DNA of 64,000 nt, from contig OY730170.1 in the NCBI GenBank assembly GCA_963422465.1, positions 1,302,001 to 1,366,000 on the forward strand. The letters are read 5' to 3'. A model generated the notes under the pieces. That model searched no databases. It had not been told where the DNA came from and saw only the letters and a list, made by a program, of their open reading frames with translations. The DNA is from Lichina pygmaea. Its lineage: Eukaryota > Ascomycota > Lichinomycetes > Lichinales > Lichinaceae. The position numbers and the translations under genes were made by a program. Below are positions 5,747 through 37,840 of this stretch, piece by piece; positions within the stretch are counted from its first letter, which is position 1, and each line of letters starts with the position of its first letter.

Positions 5747-6868
5747 GGCCTGCAACGACTCGAACCTCCACGTGGTGCAGGCTGGGAACCTCGGGGCAGT
5801 CGATGGCGGGCGGCTTCCCAGGCTGCTCGTAGTCGCTGCACCGAGAGCTAATCGAGTCACCGGTCGAGCCGCTGGTGTTGCGGAGCGACGGGCCACCGGA
5901 GGTGTCGCGCAGGCACCCTGGATGCCCCCGTGAAACAGCTACAGCAGAACAGAGGACTGCGACCAAGCTTGGGAGAGGAAAACCACCCGACAGACGACTA
6001 CCGTGTACGCTACAGCCCGAAGCCAGCCCCACAGCTGGTGGATGTGAAGTCTAGGCGTCTGATAGGGCACCTCTGGAGTAGTCGAGAGGAGTTCTCGTCA
6101 CGTCACCCTCCTAGCAGAGTCTCCAGCTAACGCGTGAGGATCTGCTAGGGGGGGAGTGGCCTTGGCACCGCGGTGTTGTTAATCGAACAGGGACCACCTG
6201 TTAAAGAAGGAGAGTGGTCGTACGAGGAGACGTCGCCGCTCCAGTGCCTAAGGGCCGTGTGATAGCCAAAGTGCTGGCTTGATGGTTTTGCCTAAGGCCT
6301 TGCCACGAAGTCTCTTCGTACGATCCACAATCTGGGGCCAGGGGACTGGGTTATCCAGTGGGCCAACAGGTGCAACCGGGGCCCCACAGGCGACAGTGGA
6401 CCAAGGAGAACTCCTCCCTACTTGGTTAGTGGGCTGGAAAGGCGGCCCTGCAGGTGCTGGCACAGCCTGCAGGATCCGTAAGGCCTGCGAGGCATGGTCG
6501 GCCTTCGTACGAGAGATCTGCGAAGGTAACGCGAAACAGTTAACAACTGCGAGGCGTGGCATATAATGGCAGTGACAGAGGTAGGGCCTGGGCCTACTAC
6601 GAGACTGTCTATATGGCCCGAGAGGACGGATGCGCATGCCGGTTCGTACGGAGTGCAGGCTTAGGCTGCAAACGACGAGCTCAGGGAGCAAACTACAGTT
6701 GGAGCGTGGGCTCTGGGCTGGTGACCCAGCGCTCCGAAGCAGGATCCCAGGGGTGAGCACGTACGGCGGAGTGCAAGAGACCTCGGGACTGTGGGAAAGT
6801 GTGGTAGAGACCCTGTGGGGGGGTGCCAACTCTACACTATGTTCTGGCATACTACGACTGTGGCTCTT
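5747..6868 (+). repeat. R1 repeat, copy 1 (fused to LINE-1)
   Basis: About 1.12 kb, GC-rich relative to the LINEs, present three times in the window (also 29351-30472 plus and 36714-37840 minus). The left edge is GGCCTGCAAC and the right edge is about TACGACTGTGG. No protein family is recognised: frames are short and the longest (200 residues, minus) is Pro/Ser-rich with no motif. The right edge passes directly, in frame, into the reverse transcriptase of a LINE truncated just before its FDDSES block. This is the arrangement of the MINE composite of Magnaporthe, in which a non-LINE sequence (WEIRD) is joined to a truncated LINE, probably by template switching. Copy 1 keeps more CpG sites than copy 2. 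Confidence 0.75.
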
Positions 6869-7528
6869 TCTGCACCAGTCGTTCTACCACTCTTGTGTTT
6901 GATGACTCTGAGTCTTCTGCTATTCCTATTCACTGTGGAGTTCCCCAAGGTTCCCCTTTATCTCCTATTCTGTTTCTATTTTACATTTCTGAACTTCATG
7001 AAACTGTACACTCTCCTTCCACTGGTGTTTCTGCTCTGGGATTTGCAGATGATACAAATCTGCTTGCATTTGGACACTCTCTAAAAAGCAACCTTCTGAA
7101 GTTGAAGAACACACACCTCAAATGTCTATCATGGGCTGCAAGACATGGAATAGTCTTCTCTCCAGAGAAATATGAAATACTTCATTTTTCCAGAAGATCA
7201 GACAATCTTCAGCTTAAGCTCAGACTGGGGAATGTGATTCTAAGACCAAAAGAAGAAGTGCGAGTATTAGGAGTGTACCTGGATGCAAAACTCCACTGGC
7301 ATAAGCACCAGAGAATTATTCTTCAAAAAGCTCAGAAAGCACTTTCCTCTCTTTCTAGAACTTCATATTCTACTTGGGGTTTCCCAGTCCTCACATCACG
7401 TCTTGTGTACACTGCAATACTCAGATCTTTACTGAGTTATGCCGTGGGGATCTGGTTCAATCCTCTAAGAAAATCTTCTAATATCTCTTCTCTTAGCACA
7501 TTCCAGAACAAATGCCTGAGACTTATTG
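6869..7528 (+). mobile_element. LINE-1 (family A), 5' piece
   Basis: Reverse transcriptase coding sequence in frame with R1, reading through CGVPQGSPLSPILF and GFADDTNLL to CLRLI. It is cut at 7528 by the G1 retrotransposon and resumes at 15069. Flanks of the cut carry the 5-bp duplication TATTG (7524-7528 and 15069-15073). One codon is missing relative to other copies (SRRSDN instead of SRRRSDN). Confidence 0.9.
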
Positions 7529-7802
7529 TGTCACGGTTCTGGCCCAGTTGCATATCTGGCACAAGTCACGCACCTTGCCGGGAAGTTCCATCTGCACTGT
7601 TGCCTGTTTGCTCCGCTGTTGCCTGATCCCCTGCCTATAAGAACTTCTCCTGCTCCCCCAGCTTCTTCTCTTCTTTTCTCTTTTTCTTCCTTCCTTGTCT
7701 TTCGTCTTGTACATCAATCCAAGTCTCAAGTCTCAAGCCGAGTCAGGTCAAGGTTACCGAATCAGTTAGGCTTGAGTTCTGCTCTGCCATTGCCTCGTCA
7801 CA
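7529..7802 (+). repeat. G1 5' LTR
   Basis: 274 bp, from TGTCACGG to CGTCACA, matched by the interrupted 3' LTR at 13229-15068. It contains a CCTATAAG TATA-like site and a long pyrimidine run (about 7660-7700). Confidence 0.88.
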
Positions 7803-7860
7803 CTACGAAAGACCTACCCAACCATAACACACTTCACCAAGCCATGTTCACGTCCTTGTC

Positions 7861-8661
7861 ATGTCTCAACAACCAGACCAAGCTATGCCAGTTGCTGGAA
7901 ATAACAAGTTCCTTCGCAACATGTTTGCAGAGTTCATGCGAATTCAAGCTACTAACACTACTCCCAAGTCCAAGTCCGAACGCACTGCTGACCCAGAGAT
8001 CTTCAGTGGCGATGGCGGAAACACGGAAATCACGCATGAGAAGCTTGAGAGCTTCATTATGTCACTGTCACTCAAGATGACGCTCAACGCTGACTGGTAC
8101 TCCACGGAAACATCGCGGATTGCGTACGTCTTTTCACGCACGACTGGCACTGCGCAGTCCTACATCTCAGCTAAGATCACGGCTGGCCAGTACATTGACT
8201 GGCACGACATTGTCCAAGATCTCCGGAACGCCTTCTCCGACCCAGACCCAGAGTTCCTAGCTCAGAGGAAGCTCATCACCTTGCGTCAGGCCAACCACTT
8301 CTTTGCCAAGTTCTTCACAGAGTTCAATCAGTATGCTCCACGCACAGGCTTCAACAACAAGGCCTTGAAGTGCTATCTTCGATGCGCTGTCTCTGAAGAG
8401 CTTGCCAAGCAGCTTGTCAGCATCAACCTCAAGGACATCAGCTATCAGAAGCTTGTTAAGGAATACCAGCTGCAGGACAACCAGTTGTGTACCACTTCTG
8501 CCAACTCTCGCTGTCCACGTCAAGCACCTCCCACCCAAGCCTCAGTTCCACGGTCAGGAGCTTCAGTCCTGTGTCCAGAGTTCATCAAGCCAGTCTTCAC
8601 GCCACAGCCACCAAGTCCTACCATGGATCTCAGCCGCTCTAAGCTGACGCCAGAAGAGTGA
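7861..8661 (+). CDS. gag: G1 Gag
   Basis: ATG-initiated 266-residue frame beginning MSQQPDQAMPVAGNN, with a Ty3/gypsy capsid-like helical region (IVQDLRNAFSDPDPEFLAQR, then LKCYLRCAVSEELAKQL). Gag would form the cytoplasmic particle that packages element RNA. The frame ends early at TGA, and a zinc-knuckle remnant (YFYCGNQGHVSTFC, with the first Cys replaced by Tyr) continues in frame just downstream, so the stop probably truncates a longer protein. It sits 59 bp after the 5' LTR. Confidence 0.75.
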   Translation: MSQQPDQAMPVAGNNKFLRNMFAEFMRIQATNTTPKSKSERTADPEIFSGDGGNTEITHEKLESFIMSLSLKMTLNADWYSTETSRIAYVFSRTTGTAQSYISAKITAGQYIDWHDIVQDLRNAFSDPDPEFLAQRKLITLRQANHFFAKFFTEFNQYAPRTGFNNKALKCYLRCAVSEELAKQLVSINLKDISYQKLVKEYQLQDNQLCTTSANSRCPRQAPPTQASVPRSGASVLCPEFIKPVFTPQPPSPTMDLSRSKLTPEE

Positions 8662-8918
8662 GAACGTCACCGAAGCAAAGGCCTCTACTTCTACTGTGGG
8701 AACCAAGGTCATGTCTCAACCTTCTGTCCAGTGAAAAGCATGCCTGTTGTTACCACCACCATGACCACCACCAAGTCTGCCACTGTTGAGACTACTCCAG
8801 AGTTGGAAAACAAGTAGTCCTTGGTTATTGTCACGCCCAAGGACATAAAAAGGATCTCCATGTTGGCTATCTGTCTCCAGACCAGTAATTAGACAGTAAG
8901 TGCTTGTTTCTTCCTTGT

Positions 8919-11900
8919 ATCCTAGATGGGAAATTCAAGTGCAATGCTCTTATTGACTCTGGCTGTTCAGTATTTGGCTGCATTGGTGCTTTCTTTGCGT
9001 AATCTCTTCACCAAGAACCTCTCCCCTACCCACGCACATTGCGATCATTCGATGGCAAGACATCACAAACCACGCATCTCGCCAAGACAATCATGACCAC
9101 GGCACATGGTGTACACCAGGAAGAAGTCTCTCTCTTTGTGTCTCCTAGTCTTCACTATGATGTGATTCTGAGGATGCCATGGCTCCAGAAGCACAGGCCA
9201 CACATTGATTGGACAAACACCTTAATCATGTTCAAGTCAGATCACTGCTGATCCGCATGCCTCAAGTCAAATAATAGCTATCCAATCTCTTTGGATCTTG
9301 AAGCTAAGATGTCTGCTGGAAAGTCTCAGGATCCCAAGCCTCTTTCTGCCACGCCAATCCCCATCAATACTGCCGTATTTTCTCTCCTTGCTGCCAAGCC
9401 AGATCACCAGGTGTTCAGTGTTTCTCTGAGAGACATTGAGCAGGCATTGAAGCCAAAGAAGTATGTGGATCCTGCCACACTTCTCCCTGCTCAGTACCAC
9501 AAGTTCCTGGACATCTTCAGCAAGGATGACGCTAACAAGCTTCCTCCTCTACGCCCAGAAGTTGACCACAAGATCAAGATGGAACCAGGAACCCAGGCAC
9601 TCTCTGGACCTCTGTACAGTATGAGCAGAGAAGAACTCGAAGTTCTCAAGAAGTACCTGACAGAGAACCTGAACAAGAGCTTCATTCAAGCATCTTCATC
9701 ACCTGCTATTGCACCAGTCCTTTTTGTCAAGAAGCCAGGAGGTGGATTGTGTTTCTGTGTAGACTACAGAGCACTTAACGCTATCACCATCAAGAACTGT
9801 TACCCCCTACCACTGATCTGGGAGATGTTGGACCAGCTTTGCAAAACTGTGTAGTACACCAAGCTTGACATTATTGGTGCCTTCAACCGTAACTGGATGA
9901 AGGAAGGTGAAGAATGGAAGACTGCGTTCCGCACGCGCTCAGGCCTCTACGAATACCTTGTCATGCCCTTTGGTCTTACCAATACTCCAAGCATGTTCCA
10001 GAACTACATCAATGATGTTTTGGGACCTGATATCCTTGACATCTTTGGCACTGCCTATGTGGATGACATCCTTGTCTACAGTCAGACACTCAAGGAACAC
10101 CAGAAGTATGTCAAGCTTGTTCTCAGTTGACTACAAGATGCAAGCCTGCAAGTTGACATTTCCAAGTGTAACTTTAAAGTCTATCAAGTCAAGTACCTTG
10201 GCCTCATCATTCAGTCTGCCACTGAAGACGGCTGACTCAGATCTGTGAGTATAGACCTAGCCAAGACTGACACCATCAAGGAGTGGAAGTCTTCTGCCAG
10301 TCTCAAGGAAGTGCAGAGCTTTATTAACTTTGCAAACTTCTACCGCTGGTTCATCAAAGACTTTGCCAAGCTTGCATCCCCACTCACAGCTCTGACCAAG
10401 AAGAATGTTGCCTTCAAGTGGGAAACCCCAGAGCAGCGCTTGTTTGAAAGTATCAAGAAGGTGTTCAGCACTGCACTCATCCTGCAGCACTTTGATCCAG
10501 AGAAGGAGTGTGTTGTTGAGACTGACACTTCTGACTATGTCTCTGGTGCTGTCCTGTCACAGCCAGATCATGAATAAGTTCTACGCCCTGTTGCCTTCTT
10601 GTCACGCCACCACCTGCCAGCAGAATACAACTACAAGATCTACAATAAAGAGTTGCTGGTAATTGTCTATGCCTTTGAAGAATAGTGAGCAGAGCTTGAA
10701 GAATCTCCAGAACCTGTCAAAGTGATCTCTGATCACAAGAACTTGGAGTACTTCATGTTGTCAAAGCACCTTTCCCGCCGTCAAGCCTGTTGGAGCGAGT
10801 TCTTGTCACACTTCAATTTCAAGATCAGCTACTGTCCAGGCAGTCAGTGCAAGGCTGACACCCTCACTTGATGTTTCCAAGACCTCCTGTCAGACAGTGA
10901 TCTCTGTCAAGACTTCATAGAGCAAGTTGTCCTCAAGCCCAAGAATCTTGTATATTCAGAGGTTCAAGTCAAGCCCATCCAGATCCTGAGATGTTCAGAA
11001 GCTGTACCAGTTAACACTAAACCTGATACTGCACCTTTTTCAGACATCATCCAAGCTGCCTATAACAACCTTGCTGAAGGTGATCCAGTAGTAACAGTGT
11101 CACAGATGCTAAGGGATAGTGTCAGGCATAGTCGAGAAGTGTCTCTCTCAGACTGCAGCTTGGAAAATAACTGTCTCTTCTACAAGAACTGACTCTGGAT
11201 CCCTGAGAACAATGAGCTATGCCTACACCTGTTCCAAGAAGCCTATGACCAAGGAATGGCTGGCCACACTGGGATTGCCAAGACCCACAATCTTCTGTCT
11301 TGTTGGTACTATTGGCCAAAGATGGTGAACATCATACAGTAGTACATCAGGAATTGTCATGTCTGCTCTTGAGCAAAGTCTGCCTGTGATTGCCAAGAAG
11401 AGCTGCTGTCTCTTCCTGTGCCTCAGCAACGTTGGCAGGATCTGGCTATAGATTTTATTACTAACTTGCCCAAGTCAAGAGATGCCTGCTTCCCTGGTGC
11501 CAAGCACATCTGGGTCATCACTGACCTGTTACGATCCCTGGGAAGGGAGCCACTTATTTATAAGCAGACAGGCTATAGGCCAGACAAGAGGACACCATGG
11601 AAAGTTCAAGTGACCAAACCGACAAAAGGTCACGTGACTGTCAAGACAAACACGGGTGGCTTGACGCAGTATGCATAAAGTATCAAGACAATCTCACCAG
11701 TCTTGATGCAGAGTGCAGGAAGCATCAAGACAATCTCACCTGTCTTGACACAGCATGCATGACATGTCAAGACAATCTCACCAGTCTTGACACAGGGTGT
11801 ATAACATGGTGGGACTGTCAAGACAATCTCACCTGTCTTGACAGAGTGCATGACATGTCAAGACAATCTCACCTGTCTCAACGTCAAGACTGTTGAGACA

Positions 11901-13060
11901 ATCTTGATTATCTTGACAGGCCAGCACTATATAGTCCGGTGATAGTTCCCTTATGGAACAATTGTCTTCAACTCATGTTGTGATCCAGACAACTAGATCT
12001 ACTTCAATACAATCCTTTTGTACAAAGCCATTGATCAGGTGTCACCACCACCACATTCCACCAAACCCCTTTGCACTCCTTGACACTCCTCTTCTGCGAG
12101 AACCAACCTGCCTTCCGCATCTTGCCCTTAATCCTATACTCAGTTAGGACAGCATGGTACAGACTGCAACATGACTGTCTCACCAAAGAATGCCACTTTG
12201 TGCCATGTGCTGAGATGACAACCTCACATCTTGTCTGGATGTTCATCCAGTTTGTTGTCTGTACCCATAGCTTACCCAGAAGTATTGTCTCAGACAGAGG
12301 AGGTCAGTTTGTCAGCTTATTCTGGAAAGCACTCTGTACCCATCTTGACATCATGCTACAACTATCCTCAGGACACCACCCAGAGACAGATGGTCAGACA
12401 GAACAAGAGAATCAGGAGCTTGAACACTACCTAAGATCCTATGTCAACTATCTCCAAGATGACTAGGTCCAATAGCTTCCTCTGGCAGAGTTCACGCAGA
12501 ACAACTCCCAGTCTGATTCCTCTGGCATATCACTGTTCTTTGCCAACAAAAGGTTCCATCCACAGCTCAGCATCACACCCACAAGTGAAGCCTGCAACCA
12601 AGATGCTATGGAAATCTCTGGAGAAATGACGCAGATTCTGGAACAGTTGCAAGCTGAACTCCGACTATCCCAGGAAGCTCAAGCTCACACTGCCAATTTG
12701 CATCAAGTCCCATCACTGTCCTATCAAACTGGAGATCTTGTTTGGCTGAATACCAAGAACATTAGGACACACCACCCATGCAAAAAGTTTGACAACAAGT
12801 GGATTGGACTATTCAAGGTGTTGAAGATAGTCAGAAGCTATGCCTGCTATCTGGAGCTTCCACACACTCTCAAGATCCACCCTGTTTTTCATGTTTCCCT
12901 TCTACGTCTGACACCTGCTAATCCTATCCCTGGCTAATCAAATAAACACTCTGGCCCTGTCATTGGTCAAGACACAGATAAAGAGTTCCAGGTTGAAGAA
13001 ATCCTTGACTCCAAGCCAGTAACATCTTGACAGAAGTTCAAGTACCTAGTCAAATAGTCT
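8919..13060 (+). pseudogene. pol: G1 pol remnant (protease, RT, RNase H, integrase, chromodomain-like end)
   Basis: Protease motif LIDSGCS occurs near 8953. RT follows from about 9291, with [19 protein letters not shown] and an intact catalytic YVDDILVYS near 10056. An RNase H region lies near 10400-10850, with the connection block QSFINFANFYRWFIKDF before it. Integrase zinc-finger and core remnants follow (WQDLAIDFITNLPKS near 11436, and SDRGGQFVSLFW, HHPETDGQTEQ downstream of the solo LTR), ending in a weak chromodomain (FQVEEILDS). Many in-frame stops (for example after LCKTV at 9853) and frame changes show that it is not translatable. Confidence 0.88.
11527..12171 (+). repeat. G2 solo LTR (in G1 integrase)
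   Basis: 645 bp running TGTTACGATCC...CTGCAACA, interrupting the G1 integrase core between WVITD and CLTKECHFVPC. It is flanked by TGACC (11522-11526) and TGACT (12172-12176), a 5-bp duplication with one later change. It contains the inverted-repeat array (about 11640-11900) followed by the CACTATATAG TATA segment. A lone LTR with a duplication indicates LTR-LTR recombination. Confidence 0.92.
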
Positions 13061-13228
13061 GGATAGCTAATTGAAGATGCCACTGAAGAGTCTATTGAGC
13101 ATCTTGACAACACCAAAGACACTATCTACAACTTCCATGAGAAATACCCAAGGAAACCACAGCCACAGAACTACACCCACAAGCAGCCTGAGACTCACAG
13201 GAGTTTGCTATGTGAAGGAGGGGGGTAA

Positions 13229-15068
13229 TGTCACAGTTCTGGCCCAGTTGCATATCTGGCACAAGTCACACACCTTGCCGGGAAGTTCTATCTGCACACA
13301 CCTTGCTGGGAAGTTCCATCTACACTGTTGCCTGTTTGCTCTGCTGTTGCCTGATCCCCTGCCTATAAGAACTTCTCTTTGATGATTCTGAGTCTTGTTC
13401 AATTCCTATTCATTGTGGAGTTTCTCAAGGTTCTCCATTATCCCCTATTCTTTTTCTATTCTACATTTCTGAATTGCATGAGACTGTGCATACTCCCTCT
13501 TCTGGTGTATCTGCCCTGGGGTTTGCAGATGATACAAATCTGCTTGCTTTTGGTCACTCCTTGAAAAGTAACCTTCTGAAGTTAAAGAACACACACCTCA
13601 AATGTCTATCATGGGCTGCAAGACATGGAATGGTCTTCTCTCCTGAGAAATATGAAATACTTCATTTTTCCAGAAGAAGATCAGACAATCTTCAGCTCAA
13701 GCTCAGACTGGGGAATGTGATTCTCAAACCAAAACAAGAAGTGTGAGTACTTGGATTGTACCTAGATGCAAAGCTCCACTGGCACAAACACCAGAGGATT
13801 ATTCTTCAAAAAGCACAGAAAGCACTCTCTTCTCTTTCTAGAACTTCCTATTCTACTTGGGGCTTTCCAGTTCACACATCACGTCTGGTGTACACTGCTA
13901 TACTGAGATCTCTACTGAGCTATGCAGTGGGGATCTGGTTTAACCCTCTAAGAAAATCCTCCAATATCTCTTCTCTTGTTTCATTTCAAAACAGATGCCT
14001 AAGACTTATTGGGGGTGCCTTCAAAGCCACTCCTTCTTTTCTATTAGAGAGTGAGCTTTTTCTTCTACCTCTAGACCTATACTTTAAATTTCGCACTGCC
14101 TGTTTTCTTTCTTCTATTCAAAACTCCCCTCTCAAATACTTTCTTGACAGTATCTTTTCCACTATTTCCAGCTATGCCTCTCTCTTGAAGAAACCTTTAA
14201 AGGAATCCTCAACTATCTCTCCTAAGTGGAAATTCACTTGGTTAAGTCAAATAACTACTAACCAGGCTAGTTCAAAGAAAGAACTACAAAAGCTCTTTAC
14301 TAAAGAGTGGGAAGACCAATGGGAAGAGAAGAAAAGAAGAAGCTATCCAGGCTGGCAGACTTTCTGTCAAAAGCCACACAAAAACAATCTGAAGCTCTAC
14401 AAAGAGTTACAGAAAGCTGAGGCAAGTCTGCTACTGCAAATCAGGACTGGAAGAATTGGTCTGGCAAGTTTTCTTTTCAGAGCTGGAGTTCCTGACTTCC
14501 CTACCCCACTATGTGTGTGTGGCCAAGCAGAAGAAACTGCAAAACATATCACCTCTTCATGCTCTCTTTATTCAAGACAAAGACAACAAGTCTCTTTTAA
14601 TCCCCAAGACTTCACCACTATTATTTCAAACTCAGAGCTACTACAGAAGTTCTTGTACTGGTTTATGTCTTTGAAAAGACTAAACCAGTTTAATCTAGCT
14701 TTCAAACTCCACTATTCCCAATCCAATACCTAGATTCTCTTCTCTTACCAGAAACTTCAAGATTTCTTTTGTTATATTCCCTAGTCACACCCTGCCTTCA
14801 GTTTTTATCTCTTCAAAGGTTTTCTGAAGGAGTTCACTATTAGCTAGAAGATCTGCATGGCTGTAAAGCTACTACCAGTGTAAGAATCAAAAAAAAAAAA
14901 AAATAAGAACTTCTCCTGCTCCCCCAGCTTCTTCTCTTCTTTTCTCTTTTTCTTCCTTCCTTGTCTTTTTTCTTGTACATCAATCCAAGTCTCAAGTCTC
15001 AAGCCAAGTCAGGTCAAGGTTACTGAATCAGTTAGACTCAAGTTCTGCTCTGCCATTGCCTTGTCACA
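13229..15068 (+). repeat. G1 3' LTR, split by LINE-2
   Basis: Segments 13229-13377 and about 14903-15068 together match the 5' LTR. The left part has an internal duplication (two ACACACCTTGCYGGGAAGTT copies) absent from the 5' LTR. The LINE-2 insertion duplicated ATAAGAACTTCTC (13365-13377 and 14903-14915). Confidence 0.9.
13378..14902 (+). mobile_element. LINE-2 (family A), 5'-truncated
   Basis: Begins in RT at FDDSES and runs through the C-terminal Cys-rich motif CVCGQAEETAKHITSSC, the 3' UTR stem-loop (14795-14830) and a poly(A)-type tail, bounded by a 13-bp target duplication. It shares three substitutions with LINE-8 (E to Q, CGA to TGA stop, V to L, about 13736-13758), so the copies have a common source that already carried the stop. 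Confidence 0.92.
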
Positions 15069-15843
15069 TATTGGAGGTGCCTTCAAAGCCACTCCATCTT
15101 TCTTATTAGAGAGTGAGCTTTTTCTTTTACCTCTAGATCTCTATTTCAAATTTCGCACAGCCTGTTTTCTCTCTTCTATTCAAACCTCCTCTCTGAAAAC
15201 ACTTCTGGACAATATCTTTTCCAATATCTTCCACTATACCTCTTCTGTGAAGAAACCTTTAAAGAAATCCTCAACTATCTTCCCCTATTGGAAGTTCACT
15301 TGGTTAAACTAATTAACTACTAACCAGGCTAGTTCAAAGAAAGAACTACAGAAACTCTTTGTTAAAGAGTGGGAAAACCAATAGGAGGAGAAGAAAAGAA
15401 GAAGCTACTCTGGGTGGCAGGTGTTTTGTCAAAAGCCTCACCACAACAACCTGAAGCTCTACAAAGAGCTACAGAAAGCTGAGGCAAGTCTACTACTACA
15501 AACCAGAACTGGGAGAATTGGCCTGGCAAGTTTTCTATTCAGAGCTGGAGCTCCAGATTTTCCTACTCCTTTATGTGTCTGTGGTCAAGCAGAAGAGACA
15601 GTGAAACATATCACCTCTTCATACTCTCTTTATTCAAGTCAAAGACAGCAAGCTCCTTTTAATTCTCAAGATTTCACTTCTATTATTTCAAACCCAGAGC
15701 TTCTACAGAAGTTTCTATACTGGTTCATGTTTTTGAAAAGACTGAACCAGTTTAATCTGGCTTTCAAACTCCACTATTCACACTCTAATATCTAGAAGTC
15801 TTCTTTCTACCAGTCACTACAAGATTTCCTTTTGCTACATTCT
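15069..15843 (+). mobile_element. LINE-1 (family A), 3' piece
   Basis: Resumes the LINE-1 frame after G1 with IGGAFKATPSFLLESELF, then the C-terminal Cys-His motif, the stop near 15793 and the start of the 3' UTR. The 3' UTR is cut by the G3 LTR at 15844 and does not reappear, so the LINE-1 3' end is missing. In-frame stops (LN* near 15311, NQ*E near 15383) make it non-functional. Confidence 0.85.
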
Positions 15844-16350: not shown

Positions 16351-16439
16351 CTATCCCCTCTCTCCAAGAGTTCTGTCCCCAGATCCTTTTTTCTTCCTAC
16401 TCCTCTTTTGTCATAAACTGAGATCAGACAACTTGAACT

Positions 16440-16921: not shown

Positions 16922-17183
16922 AAAAACTCTTCCCAGTACCACTACGTTCAAGGACCATCACTTCTGATAATCACCGGGTTTTGTCAGAAGTTCTGGAAAC
17001 CAAGCGAGTATCTGTTGGGAACCACCAAAACCTTAAGGTGAAAACCCATCACTTTGGGTAACCCAGCTTGTTTGTCAAAAGTTGTGATCTCTGAATCTTC
17101 GATCTTCAACTTCAACAACCAACAGACTATCTATAACAAGGCAGAGAGTGGCCAGTGGGATTCTGAAAGACTGGGGACAGGCC

Positions 17184-17507: not shown

Positions 17508-17551
17508 AGGTGACCCTTTGTGAACAACCCACTGTGCAGGTTACCTACCCT

Positions 17552-22288: not shown

Positions 22289-22365
22289 AGTTCACTATTA
22301 GCTGGAAGATCTGCATGGCTGTAAAGCTACAAACAGTGTAAGAATCAAATCAAAATCCCTGTCAG

Positions 22366-28300: not shown

Positions 28301-28316
28301 TCTTCCAACCCCAGTT
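22366..28316 (-). pseudogene. pol: G3-I pol remnant (protease to chromodomain)
   Basis: Leftward order: protease-like MINSGVTGNFMS (about 28160-28200, Asn where the catalytic Asp of DSG is expected), LLWLEKQNPRIDW, RT (about 27690-26900) with [16 protein letters not shown] and catalytic AYIDDVLVYT (about 27130-27165), RNase H (TDASDQVLGSCLCQPD near 26680), integrase zinc finger (HRHPGQDKTLEKIQ...CEQCAKNK) and core (MMDFIVKLPKS; AYYPQTDRQTEWTNQT). The chromodomain is split by LINE-4: EEYNVERILDS, a TGA that replaces CGA, then RNRQKTEYLVKWLEFDEEE. Multiple TAG/TGA stops. Residual reading frames are clear enough for family assignment. Confidence 0.87.
22515..25054 (-). mobile_element. LINE-4 (family A), 5'-truncated, minus strand
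   Basis: Flanked by GTTTCTTCAAC (22504-22514 and 25055-25065), splitting the G3-I chromodomain. In sense orientation it starts in the endonuclease-RT linker (KQSGHSVPWWNQE), contains RT with FADDTNLL (context EFADD rather than GFADD), and ends with the 3' UTR hairpin and a T-rich complement of the tail. Stops and changes (for example CGA to TGA in EVRVLG, a stop in FTWLS*) make it inactive. Confidence 0.92.
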
Positions 28317-29350
28317 TTATTTTATTTTATTTTATTTTATTTTATTCTTACACTGATTTAGCTGTAGAGCCATGCAGAACTTCTAGGTACATGTTTGTTT
28401 CTCCAGAAAACCTTTGGAGGAATAAAAACTGGAGCTTGGGAGAGACTAGGGAAAATCTTGTGGAATATGCAGTAGCTAAGGAAATTTGTACATGTAGCTA
28501 TTTGTTAAAACAAACAGTTGACTTGGTAGAGCTTAGAAAGAGAGTTGGTGGGCTAGGTTGAACTGGTCAAGTCTTTTCAAAGACATAAACCAGAAAAGAA
28601 GTTTAGGAAGTAGCTTGGAGGAGAATAAGATAGATGGGAAATCTTGTAGAGAATTGGACTTGTTGTCTTTGGTTTGAAAATTTGTTACAGAAAAAAGTGA
28701 TGTGTTGGGCTGTTTCTTCTCCAAAACCACATGTGCATAGAGGGGAGTTAAAGTCTGGAACATTTGCTCTGAAAAGAAAACTGGCCAGTCCTATTCTTGC
28801 TGACAGAATTTGAAGAAATAGACTAGACTCAGCTTTTCTCAAATCTTTGAAGATATTGAGGTTTTTCTTCTGTGGCCTTCTGGTGAACATGCCCCAAATA
28901 GCAGAACAATTTCCTCTGCTTACCTGCCATCTGGCTTCCCATTCTTTGTGGAAAACCTCCTGTAGACTTTTCTTTGAGAAGTCTTGGTTAGTAGTTAGTT
29001 GTTCCAGCCAGACTGTTCTCCAGTTTAGAGAAATAGTTGTCAGAGACTTTGGTGTAGTTCTGAGAGAAGAAACATAGAGAGAAATTTGACTGTGTAGTTT
29101 GTGGAGAAGTGTAGAAGGAGAGTTGGGTAGTGTGTTTGAATAGAAAGATGAAAGAAAACATGCTGTTCTCAGCTTGAAGTATAAGTCTAGAGGGGGTAGA
29201 AATAGTTCTGATTCAAGTAGGAAAATAGGAGTGGCTTTAAAGACACCTCCTATAGTTCTTAAACATTTATTTTGGAAAGTAGATAATGAAATAATATTAG
29301 AGAGTTTCTTTTGGGGATTGAACCAGACTCCTACTGCATAACTAAGAAGA
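28317..29350 (-). mobile_element. LINE-5 (family B), minus strand, 5'-truncated
   Basis: The tail complement (TTTTA)n lies at about 28317-28345 inside the G3-I protease region. In sense orientation it encodes the thumb-like region (IGGVFKATPIFLLESELF) and the Cys motif CTCGFGEETAQHITFFC, clearly related to family A but diverged. Its 5' end abuts R1 copy 2 at 29350, and G3-I sequence does not resume there, so this junction is a rearrangement or a composite insertion. Confidence 0.85.
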
Positions 29351-30472
29351 GGCCTGCAACAACTCGAACCTCCATGTGGTGCAGGCTGGGAACCTTGGGG
29401 CAGTCGATGGCAGGCGGCTTCCCAGGCTGCTCGTAGTCGCTGCACCGAGAGCTAATCAAGTCACCGGTTGAGCTGCTGGTGTTGCGGAGTGACGGGCCAC
29501 CGGAGGTGTCACGCAGGCACCCTGGACACCCCCGTGAAACAGCTACAGCAGAACAGAGGACTGCGACCAAGCTTGGGAGATGAAAACCACCTGACAGACA
29601 ACTACCGTGTACACTACAGCCCGAAGCCAGCCCCACAGCTGGTGGATGTGAAGTCTAGGCGTCTGATAGGGCACCTCTGGAGTAGTCAAGAGGAGTTCTT
29701 GTCACACCACCCTCCTAGCAGAGTCTCCAGCTAACGTGTGAGGATCTGCTAGGGGGGGAGTGGCCTTGGCACCGCGGCGTTGTTAATCGAACGTGGACCA
29801 CTTGTTAAAGAAGGAGAGTGGTCGTACGAGGAGACATCACCGCTCCAGTGCCTAAGGGCTGTGTGATAGCCAAAGTGCTGGCTTGATGGTTTTGCCTAAG
29901 GCCTTGCCACGAAGTCTCTTCGTACAATCCACAATCTGGGGCCAGGGGACTGGGTTATCCAGTGGGCCAACAGGTGCAACCGGGGCCCCACAGGCGACAG
30001 CGGACCAAGGAGAACTCCTCCCTACTTGGTTAGTGGACTGGAAAGGCAGCCCTGCAGGTGCTGGCACGGCCTGCAGGGTCCGTAAGGCCTGCGAGGTATG
30101 GTCGGCCTTTGTACGAGAGATCTGCGAAGGTAACACGAAACAGTTAACAACTGCGAGGTGTGGCATATAATGGCAGTGACAGAGGTAGGGCCTGGGCCTA
30201 CTACGAGACTGTCTATATGGCCCGAGAGGACAGATGCGCATGCCGGTTCGTACGGAGTGCAGGCTTAGGCTGCAAACAACAAGCTCAGGGAGCAAACTAC
30301 AGTTGGAGCGTGGGCTCTGGGCTGGTGACCCAGTGCTCCGAAGCAGGATCCCAGGGGTGAGCACGTACGGCGGAGTGCAAGAGACCTCGGGACTGTGGGA
30401 AAGTGTGGTAGAGACCCTGTGGGGGGGTGCCAACTCTACACTATGTTCTGGCATAGTACGACTGTGGCTCTT
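29351..30472 (+). repeat. R1 repeat, copy 2 (fused to LINE-6)
   Basis: Near-identical to copy 1 along about 1.12 kb. In the first ~190 bp nearly all visible differences are CpG in copy 1 and TpG or CpA here. The right edge (GACTGTGGCTCTT) continues in frame into the LINE-6 endonuclease domain (SSLHPTFWNKDF), a different LINE breakpoint from copy 1. The frame holds a TAG just before the junction (LA*YDCG). Confidence 0.85.
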
Positions 30473-33400
30473 CTCTTCATCCTACCTTCTGGAATAAAGA
30501 CTTTGTTTCTCTTGAAATCTACTTGGAAAACTCTTCTACTTCTCTTTGGGTACATAATCTCTACTTCACCCCATCAAGTCAAGAAAACTACACAGAGGCA
30601 TCAGAAGCTCTTCTCTGTTTACTCCAAAATGCTTTACAAGAACAAGGACAACATATTCTTCTCACAGACTCAAATCTTCACCACCCAGACTGGTCAAAGA
30701 AAAGAAGACTGTACTCTGAGACTGCAAACAAGTTTCAAGACCTAATGAAAGATTTAAATCTGGATTTAGCTATTGCACCTTTCACCCCTACCAGAGCAAG
30801 ATCTCTTTCTGAAAAACCATGTTCTTCTATTGATCTGTCTTTTATTTCTTCTTCTCTTTCTAACTCTCTGATTTTCTCTAAAGTGGCTCTTCAGTTCTTT
30901 CATGGGTCTGACCACAGACCTGTACTAACCTGCCTGGACCTGGATCCTCCAAGGAAAATCTGGAAACCAGAAAGAAACTGGAGAACACTGGACTCAAACC
31001 TTGCAAGAGTAGAGTGTGAGAAGCTACACCTGCCCTTCCACTTCCAAGACAAATATGAAGTGGATGAGTACTTGGAGTATCTTGACAACTTTCTCCAAGA
31101 AATAGCAAGCAAATCCACACAGCTCCAGAAGCAATCTGGCCACTCAGTTCCCTGGTGGAATCAAGAGATCCAAAACAAGGTTAAAGAGGAAAGAAGAGTA
31201 AGAAGAAAAGTGCAAAAAAGGCAAGCAAGTCAAGAGGAACTTGAGCAAGCAACTAAGCTCAAGAAAAAGGCAGTCAGAGATGGAAAACAGAACACTTTCA
31301 GACACCAAATCCATGAGCTGGCCAGCTCTTCAAAGTTCTGGAAGCTTGCAAAGTGGGGAAAGTCCAAAGCCAACAAGACTCCTGATCTTCCTCTGGTTCC
31401 TGACCTGGAAACACAAGAAGGAATAGCCAAAATCTTTGAGGAAAAGACTAAAGCCTTCTCACAACAGTTCTTTCCAAAAGCTCTAGTTCCAGAACCAGGC
31501 TCAGAAAGCTCCCAGACTATCTCTGAGATACAGCTCTCCCAGAAGGTAACATGTGAAGAAGTGGAGCAAATTCTGGCCAAGAAGAAACCTTTCACAGCAG
31601 GAGGGAGAGATAAGCTGCCAAATGGATTTCTGAGAGCTCTGGGGCCTAGGTTCTGCCAAGCTCTAGCTATTCTGACTTCAACATGCTGGAAACTGGAGTA
31701 CTTCCCTGAAAGATTTAAGAGTGCAAAAACAGTCTGCTTGAGGAAACCTGGCAAGGGAACCTACAATCAAGCTAAAGCCTGGCGCCCTATAGCTCTGCTA
31801 AACACAACAGGCAAGCTGATGGAAGCTATTGCTGCAGCCAGACTAAGCAAGATAGCAGAAGAAGCTGGACTATTGCCAGATATCCAGATGGGCTTTAGGA
31901 AAGGAAGATCCACAGAAGCAGCACTTTTCCTTCTAACCTCCCAAGTGGAAAAAGTCTGGAAGGAAGGCATGGTTGCATCCCTACTCTCACTGGATATCTC
32001 AGGAGCCTATGACAGAGTTCTCCCCAAGATACTACAGCAAATTCTGAAAAGAAAAGGAATACCTGCCTGGCTAGCTTCCTGGATCTACTCCTTCTATGAT
32101 AAGCGCTCTACCACTCTTGTCTTTGATGATTCTGAGTCTTATTCAATTCCTATTCATTGTGGAGTTTCTCAAGGTTCTCCATTATCCCCTATTCTTTTTC
32201 TATTCTACATTTCTGAATTGCATGAGACTGTGCATACTCCCTCTTCTGGTGTATCTGCCCTGGGGTTTGCAGATGATACAAATCTGCTTGCTTTTGGTCA
32301 CTCCTTGAAAAGTAACCTTCTGAAGTTAAAGAACACACACCACAAATGTCTATCCTGGGCTGCAAGACATGGAATGGTCTTCTCACCTGAGAAATATGAA
32401 ATACTTCATTTTTCCAGAAGAAGATCAGACAATCTTCAGCTCAAGCTCAGACTGGGGAATGTGATTCTCAAACCAAAAGAAGAAGTGCGAGTACTTGGAG
32501 TGTACCTAGATGCAAAGCTCCACTGGCACAAACACCAGAGGATTATTCTTCAAAAAGCACAGAAAGCACTCTCTTCTCTTTCTAGAACTTCCTATTCTAC
32601 TTGGGGCTTTCCAGTTCACACATCACGTCTGGTGTACACTGCTATACTGAGATCTCTACTGAGCTATGCAGTGGGGATCTGGTTTAACCCTCTAAGAAAA
32701 TCCTCCAATATCTCTTCTCTTGTTTCATTTCAAAACAGATGCCTAAGACTTATTGGGGGTGCCTTCAAAGCCACTCCTTCTTTTCTATTAGAGAGTGAGC
32801 TTTTTCTTCTACCTCTAGACCTATACTTTAAATTTCGCACTGCCTGTTTTCTTTCTTCTATTCAAAACTCCCCTCTCAAATACTTTCTTGACAGTATCTT
32901 TTCCACTATTTCCAGCTATGCCTCTCTCTTGAAGAAACCTTTAAAGGAATCCTCAACTATCTCTCCTAAGTGGAAATTCACTTGGTTAAGTCAAATAACT
33001 ACTAACCAGGCTAGTTCAAAGAAAGAACTACAAAAGCTCTTTACTAAAGAGTGGGAAGACCAATGGGAAGAGAAGAAAAGAAGAAGCTATCCAGGCTGGC
33101 AGACTTTCTGTCAAAAGCCACACAAAAACAATCTGAAGCTCTACAAAGAGTTACAGAAAGCTGAGGCAAGTCTGCTACTGCAAATCAGGACTGGAAGAAT
33201 TGGTCTGGCAAGTTTTCTTTTCAGAGCTGGAGCTCCTGACTTCCCTACCCCACTATGTGTGTGTGGCCAAGCAGAAGAAACTGCAAAACATATCACCTCT
33301 TCATGCTCTCTTTATTCAAGACAAAGACAACAAGTCTCTTTTAATCCCCAAGACTTCACCACTATTATTTCAAACCCAGAGCTACTACAGAAGTTCTTGT

Positions 33401-33645
33401 ACTGGTTTATGTCTTTGAAAAGACTAAACCAGTTTAATCTAGCTTTCAAACTCCACTATTCCCAATCCAATACCTAGATTCTCTTCTCTTACCAGAAACT
33501 TCAAGATTTCTTTTGTTACATTCCCTAGTCACACCCTGCCTTCAGTTTTTATCTCTTCAAAGGTTTTCTGAAGGAGTTCACTATTAGCTAGAAGATCTGC
33601 ATGGCTGTAAAGCTACTACCAGTGTAAGAATCAAATAAATAAAAT
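30473..33645 (+). mobile_element. LINE-6 (family A), nearly complete ORF2, fused to R1
   Basis: ORF2 from SSLHPTFWNKDF in the endonuclease to the stop at 33477 is open for roughly 1000 codons, but it has no ORF1, no 5' UTR and no ORF2 start; the upstream sequence is R1. It keeps LTDSNLHHPDW, GSDHRPVLT, FADDTNLLAFG and CVCGQAEETAKHITSSC. CGVSQGSPL replaces CGVPQGSPL in the RT. The 3' UTR hairpin is at 33539-33574, and the tail (AATAAATAAAATAAAAATAAAA) runs into G2-II. An intact RT frame in a 5'-truncated copy suggests a recent insertion. Confidence 0.9.
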
Positions 33646-34344
33646 AAAAATAAAATCACCCACAAACTGACGGCCAGACAGAGTGAGCAAACCAAGTCCT
33701 GGAGACTTACTTACGGCATTACATCAACCAGACCCACAGCAATTGGGTACAGTTATTACCAGTGGCACAGCTGGCAATCAACCAGCACAGATCAGACTCA
33801 ACAAAGGAATCACTATTTTTTGCTAATTTTGGACAACATGCAAACATCAGGATGCCAAGCAGAGCTTCACCAAACACGGAGAAAGCACTCCAACATGACA
33901 AGCTCCTACAACAAACACACACAATGATGAGGCACTACCTTCAAGAGACCTCAGAAAGAATGCAACATCAAATAGACAAGAAATTGAAAATGGCACCTCA
34001 GCTAAAGAAGGGGGATAAAGTCTACCTTCTCACAAGAAATTGGAAAATGAAGAAACCAAAAACAAAGAAACTTGACAACATCAAGGTCAGACTATTTTTG
34101 GTCAAAGAAAAAACAGGACCAGTCAACATCAAGATACAACTACCAAGGGATGCCAGAGTCCATCCAAACTTTCATATATTGATGATTGAACCAGCCGACC
34201 AGAGCACACCCTTGCAGGAAACATTCCATTATCAACCTGAAGAAGAACAAGAGTTTGAAGTTGAACAGATCCTGGCTAGGAAAAGTTAGCAATACCTTGT
34301 CAAGTGGAAAGGATACCCAGACTCGGAAAATACCTGGGAACCAC

Positions 34345-34845
34345 TCAAGAACCTCGCGAACTACCAGCTTCTTCTGCGACAGTTTTAGCAGGAGCAGGAC
34401 TGAACAGCTCAGCCTGCAGGAGGGATGTGTCAATGACTGATCAAGTCAAATCCTTGCCATCTGACTCTATCTCTTTCACCAAGCACTGAAGCTTCTGCCT
34501 TGCACAGACCTTAGCGCCCTCCAACACCTTTCACTCCTGAAACAGACAAGCCTGCACTGTGGCAAGTTGTTCAAAGAGTGCGTCACGTGTTGCCTTGTCA
34601 GTGGCCACATCCTCACGGAGGTTGTCCCAGGACATGTTCAGAGATTCCCAGGACACAGAGACACAAGACCTTCCACGCCAAGTGCACACAGCACATTTCA
34701 ACTTATCGTCTTCTCCTGACATCTGGAAGTACAGATGACCACGAAGAACACAAAAGTCGCAGGGCGTACGCGAAACAAAACCCTGATTGTGGATTTGAGC
34801 AGCAAGCTGAGTTCGGCTAACAGTCGCACATGACTTTGGAGGCAT
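34345..34845 (-). pseudogene. Antisense accessory ORF of G2-II: Cys6-like cluster plus coiled coil
   Basis: On the strand opposite to pol, from ATG 34845 to the TGA at 34345-34347: 501 bp (166 codons) with two visible stops, one after CLFQE (about 34531) and one after DGKDLT. The first 105 codons are open: MPPKSCATVSRTQLAAQI, then CDFCVLRGHLY (Tyr in place of a third Cys) and CAVCTWRGRSC, approximating CX2CX6C-X11-CX2CX6C, the spacing of Zn2Cys6 DNA-binding clusters. A charged heptad-rich tail follows (WESLNMSWDNLREDVATDKA, EQLATVQA). It overlaps the chromodomain end of pol. The G2-III copy has the same 501-bp length in the same place. A DNA-binding role is inference. Confidence 0.6.
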
Positions 34846-34888
34846 GACCAGATTTCATCAAGATGATGAAAGATGGAGAGGAGGATAG

Positions 34889-35519
34889 TGTTACAACCCA
34901 GGAGGAACACAGTCTTTATATACTCACAGGAAGCAGCAGACAGGATACTGGACAGAAGTACCAGGCAGCGTGACACGGGAACCAGTCACGTGACTGGTGA
35001 GACAAACTGGAGAGTGCTTGCCGCAGCATGCATATGCACGAACAAGTGAGCAAAGTGAGCAGAGCTCACCCAGCTCACCGCAGTGTGCATGAAAAGTGAG
35101 CAAAGTGAGCAGAGCTCACCCAGCTCACTGCAGTGTGCATGAACAAGTGAGCAAAGTGAGCAGAGCTCACCCAGCTCGCCGCAGCGTGCATGAACTGTGA
35201 GCAAAGTGAGCAGAGCTCACCGATCTCACCGAGTGAGCAAAGTGAGCAGAGCTCACTATGCTCACGAACTGGGCACTATATAGTCTGGCGATAGTTCCCT
35301 TATGGAATGATTGTCTTCAACTCATGTTGTGATCCAGACAACTAGATCTACTTCAATACAATCCTTTTGTATGAAGCTGTTGATCAGGTGTCACTACCAC
35401 CACATTCCACCAAACCCCTTCGCACTCCTTGACACTTCTCTCCTGTGAGAACCAACTCGCCTTCCACCTCTCGCCCTAATCCTATACTCAGATAGGACAG
35501 TACAGTACAGACCGCAACA
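34889..35519 (+). repeat. G2-II 3' LTR (variant array type)
   Basis: 631 bp from TGTTACAACC to CCGCAACA, preceded by purine-rich GGAGAGGAGGATAG. The 3' half (from GCACTATATAGTC) matches the other G2 LTRs, but the internal inverted-repeat array (about 35040-35265) uses GTGAGC/GCTCAC arms instead of GTCRAGAC/GTCTYGAC. The spacer GCAGYGTGCATGAA is shared with the other type. Confidence 0.88.
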
Positions 35520-36150
35520 CTAAGAAACAATTTCAAGAAGTGTTTCAGAAAGAGTGGGAAGCCAGATGGCAGGCAAACAGACAGAAATGTTCTTCAGTCT
35601 GGGAGCTATTTTGCAGACTACCCCAAAAGAAAAATCTCAAAGTTTTCAAAGACTTGAGAAAAGCTGAAGCTAGTCTTTACTTGCAGATTCTATCAGCAAG
35701 GATAGGACTAGCCAGCTTTCTTTTCAGAGCAAATGTTCCTGACTTCCAATCTCCTCTATGTTTCTGTGGTTTTGGAGAAGAGACTGCTCAACATATTACT
35801 TTCTCTTGTAACAAGTTTCTTACTCAAAGACAGCAAGCCACTTTTCTTTCCTACATTTTCTCTACTTTACTTCAAAAGCCTAAAGTGCTTAAAGAATTTC
35901 TTCTCTGGTTTATGTCTTTGAAAAGACTAGACTAGTTTAACTTAGCACACCAACTCTTACCAGAAAACCTATCATCTCTGTGATTTTATTTTCTCCAGAC
36001 ACTGCATATTCTTCCAGATAATTCCCTAGTCTTACCCAAGTCTCAGTTTTTATTCCTTCAAAGGTTTTCTGGGAAAAAAAGCATGTATCTAGAAGTTCTG
36101 CATGGCTCACCAGCCAAATCAGAGTAAGAATAAAATAAAAATAAAAATAA
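35520..36150 (+). mobile_element. LINE-7 (family B), 3' fragment
   Basis: Encodes the C-terminal part of ORF2 (FQKEWEARWQANRQKCSSVW, KDLRKAEASLYLQI, then CFCGFGEETAQHITFSC), a stop near 35936, a 3' UTR with hairpin TCTCAG/CTGGGA (36041-36074), and an AATAAAATAAAAATAA tail. It follows the G2-II LTR directly. Confidence 0.85.
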
Positions 36151-36713
36151 TACCTTTAGAAATCCATTGGGTAGAGTGTTTTTCCCAGGAGCTGTAACAG
36201 GTTTTTTCTTTTTCAGAATATTGTGGATATCTTCTTTGGAGATTTCCTGAGATAGCTGGTGTTGTTGGTGGTTGGCTGGCTGGTCCTGGGATTCTGGTAC
36301 TGGCTGGAGAGGTAGAGGGAAGAACTGGGTTTTGAATACTTCTACCTTTTCTGTGAAAGTTCTGGCAGTTTCTCCATCTTTCTTTGTGAGCTCTGGAACA
36401 ATTGGAAGTTCTGGTGGTTTGCCAGCTTTTTCTTTACCCCACTTGGCTATTTTCCAGTGCTTTTGTGTTTCAGCCAGGTTCTGGAGTTGTTCTCTGAATG
36501 TCTTTCTTTTAGCATTCTTGATCAGGTGTTTCTTTTCCTTTATTACCTTTTCAAGTTTGTAGACTGGTTCTTGGTTTTGGAAGACTTTTCTTCTTAGTTT
36601 TCTTTCCTCTTTAATTTTCTCTTTAATCTCTTGGTTCCACCAGAGAACAGTGTACTTTGAGTCTCTCAGAGCTCTTGTTGTCTTGTCAGCCAGTTCTTGA
36701 AGAGCTTTGTCCA
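36151..36713 (-). mobile_element. LINE-B endonuclease-RT linker fragment, minus strand, fused to R1 copy 3
   Basis: Leftward reading gives LDKALQELADKTT, WWNQEIKEKIKEERKLRRK, then KHWKIAKWGKEKAGKPPELP and KKKPVTAPGKNTLPNGFLK, which aligns with the linker of family A ORF2. Family B sequence. Its 5' side joins R1 in frame at about 36714. Its 3' side meets the LINE-7 tail head-on, so the two B fragments lie tail to tail. Confidence 0.82.
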
Positions 36714-37840
36714 GACCACAGTTGAGCTATGCCGAGGCATAGCGCAGAGTCGACATCCTGTGCAGGGTCTCTGCCACACTTCCCCGCAGTCCTGAGGTTT
36801 TTTGCGCTCCGCCGTGTACGCTCACCCCTAGGTCCTGCTTCGGAGCGCTGGGTTGCTAGCCTGGAGCCCACACTCCAACTGCAGTTTGCTTCTTGAGCCT
36901 GTCATTTGCAGCCTGAGCCTGCACTCTGTACGGACCAGTATGTGCTTCCGTCCTCTCAGGCCATATAGACAGTCTTGTAGTAGGCCCAGACCCTACTGCC
37001 ATCACTGCCATTATATGCCACACCCCGCAGCTCTCGCTGTTTCATGTTATCTCTGTAGATCTCTCGTACAGAGGCCGACCATGCCTCGCAGGCTCTACAG
37101 ACCCTGCAGGCTATGCCAGCACCTGCAGGACTTCTTTTCCAGCCCACTAACCAAGTAGGGAGAAGTCTCCATCTGCCCGCTGTCACCTGTGGGACCTCGG
37201 ATGTATGTGGTGGCCCACTGGAGAACCTCCAGTGCCCTAGCCCTGGTCTGTAGGTGGCCCGAAGAGAATCCGTGGCAAGACCTTAGGCAAAACCATCAAG
37301 CCAGCACTTTGACTATCACACAGCCCTTAGGTACTGGAGTGGTGGAAACCCTTCATGCCACCTGCTCACCTTCTTTAACACGTAGTCCCTGTTCGATTAA
37401 CAACACTGCAGTACAGACATCACTCCCCTCCTAGAACAAGATCCTTGATGCATCAGCTGCTGGAGACTCTGCCAGAAGAGGGGTGTGCGATAGGAACTCT
37501 TCTCGTCTACTCCAGAGGTGCCCTGTCGGGTGTCTAGACTTCACATCCACCAGTTGCAAGACTGGCTTCAGGCTGTAGCGTACACGGTAGACATCTGTTG
37601 GGTGGTTTTCATAATCAGTTTGGTCGAAGTCCTCTGTTCTGCTGATGTCACTTCACGGAGGTGTCCAGGGTGCCTGCACGACACCTCCGGTGGCCTGTCA
37701 CTCCACGGGCACCAGCAGCTTGACTGGTGACTCAATTAGCTCTCGGTGCAGCAACTACAAGCAGCTTGGGAGACTGCCTGCCATCACTGCCCCAAGGTTC
37801 CCAGCCTGCACTGCGTGGAGGTTTGAGTCTTCGCAGACCT
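36714..37840 (-). repeat. R1 repeat, copy 3, minus strand
   Basis: A more diverged R1 copy: left edge (sense) AGGTCTGCGAAGACTCAAACC at about 37840, right edge CTCAACTGTGG at about 36714. It is fused in frame to a 5'-truncated LINE of family B, so R1 has been joined to both LINE families. The 5' side abuts G3-II RT sequence. Confidence 0.8.

Follow-up and report, generated by a model that had tools for sequence, protein, structure and literature searches.

R1 is a sequence of about 1.1 kb that occurs three times in a stretch of 64,000 nucleotides from the genome of the ascomycete Lichina pygmaea (GenBank assembly GCA_963422465.1, contig OY730170.1, positions 1,302,001 to 1,366,000 of the forward strand; C2:1302001-1366000 in our contig numbering), which was analysed at its full length and will be referred to as the window. 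Based upon the sequences described below, we consider it probable, with a likelihood of about 0.6, that R1 parasitizes long interspersed nuclear elements (LINEs) as a non-coding RNA, and that the 3' end of its RNA is joined to LINE RNA at sites chosen by an internal guide, in a process like half of a reverse splicing, the product of which would then be copied by LINE reverse transcription. Composites of this general type are already known (viz. the MINE element of Magnaporthe grisea). The two features that an earlier note on this DNA had overlooked, namely a rule for the joining sites that depends upon the R1 family and a predicted ribozyme fold at the R1 5' end similar to that of hepatitis delta virus (HDV), are facts of the sequence, and the position in R1 of the guide is likely. 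R1 itself, the nature of which that note had listed as unknown, can now be defined more closely, as a non-coding and structured RNA that has an HDV-like ribozyme fold at its 5' end and a probable internal guide.

The genome searched comprises 32.47 Mb in eight contigs. A pattern for the R1 3' end occurred in it 149 + 148 = 297 times, as against 7 + 4 = 11 times for the reversed pattern (i.e., about 290 R1 3' ends), and patterns for the R1 core and the R1 5' end were found 254 and 240 times, respectively, with no occurrence of their controls. Three families of R1 were seen: R1a, which includes the first and second copies in the window, R1b, which includes the third copy and is about 81% identical to R1a, and R1c. 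The joints were studied in 60 whole copies with their flanks (L001-L060) and in 60 more 3' joints chosen by the 3'-end pattern (L061-L120). These 120 joints are not a random sample: the former are the best-scoring 30 from each of two similarity searches, each of which scored 40 of about 300 candidates, and the latter are the first 60 of 71 new places in the first 100 of the 297 3'-end matches, all of them on contigs C1-C3 and without mismatch to the pattern; the second R1 copy of the window lies outside this set. The exact terminus ACTGTGG is present in 58 of the 60 whole copies, which were chosen by overall similarity, and a single substitution is found in L033 and L049; the earlier proposal that the 3' end of R1 is its joining end is borne out. 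L061-L120 cannot be counted for this constancy because they were chosen by that very pattern. At the opposite end, 57/60 whole copies start with GGCCTGC or GGTCTGC, eight of these being preceded by A, and the first G is absent or altered in L027, L057, and L059. No sign of a conserved coding frame across R1 was seen, no dedicated test having been made, and a scan of IMG/VR with one exact 21-base pattern from the R1 core gave no match. A protein search with the antisense open reading frame (ORF) of R1 yielded 17 matches, 14 of them at 80–99% identity and three (P0016-P0018) more divergent or partial, which may be old copies or R1 of another species. Two R1 copies, L061 (C1:540-1662) and L036 (C6:3694800-3695923), are situated no more than about 1 kb from the end of a contig and are possibly subtelomeric.

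A LINE protein match in the same orientation was found downstream of 115 of the 120 joints. In 104 of them the downstream stretch gave matches to the two LINE A proteins, the second of which contains endonuclease and reverse transcriptase domains, and in a further 11 it matched GC-rich LINEs from this genome; no partner was assigned to L061, L063, L083, L087, and L114 from about 300 bases. With these five partners unassigned, no copy among the 120 was shown to stand alone, in the manner of the free copies formed by short interspersed nuclear elements (SINEs). The distinct joints, 42 for R1a and 49 for R1b with R1c included, are scattered through both ORFs (ORF1 and ORF2) in several LINE families, so that a single inherited R1-LINE joint is not found, and the earlier description of the composites as MINE-like, in which a whole R1 of RNA origin is attached, at many sites and in several families, to LINEs truncated at their 5' ends, holds. 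Target duplications of at least 9 bases that terminate at the 5' end of R1 were detected for 11 of the 15 whole copies in which the 3' end of the LINE could be seen, as against 5 of 210 mismatched left and right pairs; because such duplications surround whole composites, R1 and LINE are inserted together as a single unit, in the LINE fashion. Three composites (L017, L040, and L057) have the form R1-R1-LINE, the truncated second R1 that precedes the LINE beginning at nt 46-48, 211, and 237. About 190 bases upstream of the composite in L017 there is a match to a tRNA gene that contains an insert (L017:1220-1314, minus strand).

It could be supposed that R1 is the 5' untranslated region of a LINE family, including an HDV-like ribozyme, and that the composites arose from that LINE by internal deletion, since an HDV-like ribozyme is carried at the 5' end, or close to it, by LINEs such as R2 (PMC3774820) and L1Tc (PMC4035085), according to the portions of these reports covered here. 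We have rejected this extremely improbable explanation: in place of one joint at the LINE start there are the 42 and 49 distinct joints described above, with no preference for the start and with sites across both ORFs of several LINE families, R1 is also found joined to R1, and a LINE A in the window that has both ORFs carries no R1 before ORF1. A derivation of the composites from one master chimera was likewise rejected, upon comparison of nine pairs of copies joined at the same site and one pair joined one base apart (L032 and L058). These pairs show 16–55 differences, some below and some above the family means of 22.6 and 37.7; L039 and L042 have 14 common non-majority columns, which exceeds the 95% limit of 13, and that pair may therefore be of common descent. 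These two, together with L038 and L054, make up four R1b copies with differing R1 letters and left flanks that are joined at the identical base of LINE C, the third LINE family of the window, and this base is a recurrent target. Among the R1c copies L126-L130, four of the five join GC-rich LINEs and L129 joins an AT-rich LINE resembling LINE C, and this family may represent an earlier wave of R1.

For each joint, the upstream LINE sequence was supplied by a reference, namely an uninterrupted copy from the LINE family concerned. Six joints had no such reference (L011, L061, L063, L083, L106, and L119), and ten more were dropped where the reference was below 90% or was itself R1 (L026, L067, L073, L076, L077, L087, L089, L112, L114, and L120), leaving 104 copies for the 42 and 49 distinct sites, with R1c counted with R1b. 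With the joint marked by a point, R1a is joined at CT·YC and R1b at A(A/G)·YC. For R1a, T is present at −1 in 38/42 sites and C at −2 in 35/42, whereas in the R1b-type sites the base at −1 is A in 26 and G in 12 (38/49 together) and that at −2 is A in 31/49. The bases at +1 and +2 are each C in 31/42 (R1a) and 37/49 (R1b) sites. Both rules hold across the LINE families common to R1a and R1b (LA, LB, and others). The first six LINE bases all match the reference in 95 of the 104 copies, five match in 7 and four in 2. In the few control LINE truncations without R1 (n = 14), YC was found at +1/+2 in 3/14 and T at −1 in 8/14.

These results bear directly upon the mechanism favored by the earlier note, in which the LINE reverse transcriptase simply switches onto an abundant R1 RNA at its 3' end. 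Switching of this kind at pausing sites, with a sequence preference that belongs to the enzyme, is the published model for WEIRD-MGL, the corresponding composite in MINE, in the part of PMC2104539 covered here, and the YC preference at +1 and +2 common to both R1 families could be microhomology to the R1 end in GGCC. However, the preference at −1 and −2 differs between R1a and R1b despite their common LINE families, and because these bases are not copied and yet vary with the acceptor RNA, such a preference is not expected from a switching enzyme. Microhomology between the upstream LINE bases and the R1 end, moreover, was 0 in 27 of 33 cases and 1 base in 6. Simple template switching is thus unsupported, and we regard it as distinctly unlikely.

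A probable guide that could account for the bases upstream of the joints was located within R1. In a scan over 1106 aligned columns, the top joint score of 12.8 (mean −6.6) was obtained at nt 226 of R1a (GGAGAT) and nt 224 of R1b (GGTTAT). When derived from the sites alone, the best-fitting 4-mer of R1a is GGAG and that of R1b is GGTT, each of which ranks first of 256, and the guide 6-mers rank first and second of 4096; GGAG and GGTT stand opposite each other at only 1 of 1108 aligned 4-mers. The guide of its own family pairs with both −1 and −2 in 35/42 (R1a) and 30/49 (R1b) sites, as against 0/42 and 2/49 for the guide of the other family, and none of 20000 shuffles of the family labels reached the own-guide total. 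Over positions −4 to +2, own-guide pairing has means of 4.02 (R1a) and 3.41 (R1b) Watson-Crick pairs with a peak at offset 0, and does not exceed 2.60 and 2.16, respectively, under register shifts of up to eight bases; the control truncations gave 2.14 and 1.71 pairs with the two guides. All four core guide positions are paired in 30/42 and 26/49 sites, in comparison to 697 and 601 of 8717 LINE positions. At sites outside the guide scan (LINE C, GC-rich LINEs, and lower-identity matches, the downstream letters of which had been seen beforehand), −1 and −2 were both paired by the own guide in 14/17 and 14/19 cases (28/36) and by the other in 0/17 and 1/19 (1/36). The R1-R1 composites L017, L040, and L057 also agree with the site rule at −1/−2. 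A guide variant, GAAGAT, was found in four R1a copies, all of which are located on contig C1 (770222, 961919, 1428076, and 1452151).

In the model that we favor, the transcript of an R1 copy would self-cleave at the ribozyme, which would generate the R1 5' end. The internal guide (5'-GGAG-3' in R1a and 5'-GGUU-3' in R1b) would then pair with LINE RNA, two bases on either side of one phosphodiester, and the R1 3' end would attack the LINE RNA between −1 and +1 and, in a reaction that corresponds to the opening step of reverse splicing, become joined to the downstream piece, the upstream piece being lost. The LINE protein would carry out target-primed reverse transcription from the LINE 3' end, through the LINE piece and R1 as far as the R1 5' end, thereby inserting both. 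The agent of the joining could be R1 itself as a ribozyme, or a further factor. Since a fixed R1 3' end is joined inside the guide-paired site, the first half of reverse splicing is the simplest account, and with joining of this kind no free R1 source gene is needed.

The closest alternative to guided RNA joining retains the guide. The LINE RNA would be cut, or the reverse transcriptase stopped, where the guide is paired, and the enzyme would jump from there to the R1 3' end, so that no R1-LINE RNA is ever formed. Such a guided jump should yield the same products under the same guide rule, and jumps of an end-to-end kind have been reported for the R2 enzyme, to judge from a title cited in PMC2104539. 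However, the joint sits two bases inside the paired stretch, and a stalled enzyme should halt at its edge. Template jumps often add letters, whereas the LINE side of the R1 joints is exact in the 95 of 104 copies noted above. We therefore rate a guided jump as unlikely, and hold guided joining of the two RNAs to be the better reading.

The Rfam model for the HDV ribozyme (RF00094) matches R1 from two bases before the R1 start with 39 bits (E 0.001); R1a, R1b, and R1c with their flanks score 36–41 bits, and an R1 stretch cut at G1 scores 28–29 bits (E 0.06–0.09). The start of R1 is the predicted cut (+1) of this fold, which contains the nested double pseudoknot of P1, P2, P3, and P4 as a prediction below the gathering cut-off, P4 being long. 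In 26 aligned copies (16 distinct rows), 98.8% of the 608 cells of the ribozyme pairs are standard, as against 30–40% when the partners are slid by 1–3 columns. One pair each in P2 and P4 is altered on both sides between R1 families. The doubly changed cells number 10, in comparison to 3.1 in shuffles, and this count, the covariation score and the share of cells that are paired all lie above those of all 500 shuffles. A C at column 102, in the segment GCTAA, is invariant in 26/26 copies, and we take it to be the conserved catalytic C in J4/2. These observations argue that the R1 5' end is an HDV-like ribozyme fold, as predicted. R1 is also structured beyond the ribozyme: a consensus fold of 18 copies has 17 compensated pairs between one R1a and one R1b copy, as against a shuffle mean of 3.9 and a maximum of 10 in 2000, although this fold is favored in the comparison because the folding used the very sequences compared. 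On the antisense strand, a weak match to an influenza pseudoknot close to the 3' end of R1 (19.6 bits vs. 47) was attributed to chance.

With a ribozyme fold of this type, with none of the 120 copies shown alone and with several divergent lineages, R1 could also be a viroid-like replicon, which exists as RNA outside the genome and is occasionally captured by LINEs, its DNA copies being dead ends. However, the antisense strand of R1 had no ribozyme match in four Rfam scans and the inner joints of the three R1-R1 composites are without ribozyme, and we find such a replicon very unlikely in comparison to an RNA that is joined to LINE RNA by means of a guide.

Several points weigh against guided joining as described here. 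The RNA-level steps are inferred, from DNA copies of their presumed products. All of the RF00094 scores are under the Rfam gathering score of 50, with E from 0.001 to 0.09, and when counted by pairs instead of cells, the doubly changed ribozyme pairs (2) are close to the shuffle mean of 1.8 and were matched by 407/500 shuffles. In the four Rfam scans of R1, two of which reported matches up to E 5 and two up to E 10, no group I, group II, or other splicing ribozyme was detected; this includes the conserved core of group I introns and the domain V/VI and D1-D4 models of group II. A fold based upon R1a only has 16 pairs that are compensated and 48 that are broken in R1b. In regard to the guide, the runner-up location, at R1a nt 831, scores 10.3 as compared to 12.8, the full four-pair core is formed in many but not all of the sites, and −3 and −4 are of little weight. 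There are only two guide states, R1c carrying that of R1b where it was read, and the location of the guide thus rests on a single two-base difference; with 14 GGAG sites in R1a, the chance of such a match is by estimate about 1 in 20, which is not negligible. An A at guide position 2 should favor T at +1, which is found in 3/4 R1b and 0/3 R1a copies with this A, vs. 15/59 whole copies with G (copy L132, also fetched for this comparison, is uncounted since the stretch taken showed no R1 end); some of these A changes may be later mutations. Single-sequence folds give the guide no special openness (percentiles 34–59). The joint finder required a LINE match at most 6 bases from R1, and joints with longer inserts are possible among the 6 that it missed. 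Lastly, same-site R1 copies may not always be separate events, L039 and L042 being in doubt.

The known system that R1 resembles most in its composites is MINE, for which the oldest paper cited in PMC2104539 dates from 2005. In the part of that report covered here, the WEIRD portion of MINE is a non-coding sequence of 1113 nt that is never solo and for which no source gene was found; its joints have the motif GCC·A/T, with G at −3 in 12/13 distinct sites of Table 3, and the authors considered this motif necessary and not sufficient, the templates being without homology at the joints. SINE partners and a tripartite form of MINE are also described there. Like WEIRD, R1 forms composites in which a full-length copy of a non-coding RNA of about 1.1 kb is followed by LINEs truncated at many sites, with target duplications and a sequence-specific joint, and no solo copy or source gene was found for it. 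R1 differs in its rules (CT·YC and AR·YC instead of GCC·A/T), and no 5' ribozyme or guide is described for WEIRD in the covered part of PMC2104539. Two WEIRD primers of 20 bases had no match in R1 better than that of shuffled primers. The likeness to MINE that the earlier note raised stands for the type of composite and was not found at these primers; R1 appears to work like MINE and is not called WEIRD here, the sequences having been compared at two primers only. A motif that is necessary but not sufficient, together with templates that lack homology, is what a guide would explain in WEIRD as well. Neither an HDV-like ribozyme nor a guide was reported for WEIRD or LINE-fused RNAs in the titles and opening abstract lines of the PubMed Central matches listed, which do not extend to preprints. 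A more far-reaching proposal, to which we give slightly less than even odds, is that R1 is a protein-free mobile ribozyme that splices its own 3' end onto guide-chosen LINE RNA, and that WEIRD, with GCC before its joint and a guide NGGC, is a second independent or a distant member of the same class.

Reverse splicing with an internal guide is known for group I and group IIA introns (P1-P10, and EBS1 plus delta, respectively). By analogy, a short guide in R1 would span the joined bond, and the 3' end of the RNA would be joined to the downstream piece. In contrast to these introns, R1 has no Rfam core, has an HDV-like fold at its 5' end and GG at its 3' end, and only the downstream half of the target is kept. 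In group I introns a U at −1 is paired with a guide G, a feature that is not seen in R1, where the T at −1 of R1a sites is opposite A and R1b sites mostly have A or G at −1. In regard to the 5' end, some R2 elements have an HDV-like ribozyme that cuts at the 5' end of the element (PMC3774820, in the portion covered here). R1 shares with these and with L1Tc a fold with its cut, predicted in R1, at the element's 5' end, but R1 itself is no LINE and its P4 is long. U6-L1 and other mammalian chimeric retrogenes, as summarized in the covered part of PMC2104539, consist like R1 composites of a non-coding RNA as the 5' part and a truncated LINE; they contain a cellular RNA at random truncation sites, whereas the sites of R1 follow an R1-specific rule.

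It has long been proposed that introns can move by reverse splicing at the RNA level and subsequent reverse transcription. The composites described here would provide, in one fungal genome, nearly 300 natural products of an apparent reverse-splicing-like reaction, many of whose sites are predicted by the guide. If this is correct, the class of chimeras ascribed to template switching, such as MINE, becomes one of parasites with their own targeting, and the missing source gene of WEIRD is explained; if R1 catalyzes the joining, it would be a new large ribozyme.

All three R1 copies that the earlier note placed in the window are present, with slightly shifted edges, and each is joined to a 5'-truncated LINE of the same orientation, at three LINE positions and in different LINE families. 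The first copy (R1a, 5747-6864, plus strand) starts at the predicted ribozyme cut and ends in ...ACTGTGG; it contains the HDV-like ribozyme domain with P1, P2, P3, and P4 (5747-5861, the 39-bit match above) and the proposed guide GGAGAG (R1 nt 226-231, 5972-5977), which differs from the GGAGAT of most R1a copies compared. Its LINE begins at LA position 3803 (6865-7528) and resumes near 15068 (15068-15840, plus strand). The interruption (7529-15067) is apparently due to a retroelement with long terminal repeats, similar ends being seen by eye near 7740-7810 and 15000-15067. The second copy (R1a, 29351-30467, plus strand) has a ribozyme domain at 29351-29465, which was located by its similarity to that of the first copy and not scanned separately, the proposed guide GGAGAT at 29576-29581, and a LINE of family LB that extends from the endonuclease part through an A-rich tail (30468-33656). 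In the third copy (R1b, 36716-37839, minus strand), the ribozyme domain (37725-37839) was located by similarity to other R1b copies, and the proposed guide (37611-37616) reads GATTAT, where the majority of R1b copies have GGTTAT; the joined LINE belongs to LINE C (36148-36715, minus strand). The LINE begins right after the ...GACTGTGG of R1, and position 37840 is a flanking A.

The earlier note also observed that R1 enters the LINE reading frame without a shift. This is true for the three window copies (phase 2), but not in general, as phases 0, 1, and 2 occur in 16, 32, and 17 of 65 joints with LA or LB; with the phase of the window in 17/65 joints, as by chance, in-frame fusion was rejected as a meaningful property. 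Upstream of the three window joints, the R1 frame is open for only about 19, 4, and 4 codons.

Among the repeats of the window there are also host genes, all on the minus strand, for CRAL-TRIO, helicase C-terminal, and SWIRM-associated/Myb proteins (1478-2695, 54154-55737, and 60076-61998). The closest match of the SWIRM-type protein among named sources is from Xylona heveae, with 51% identity.

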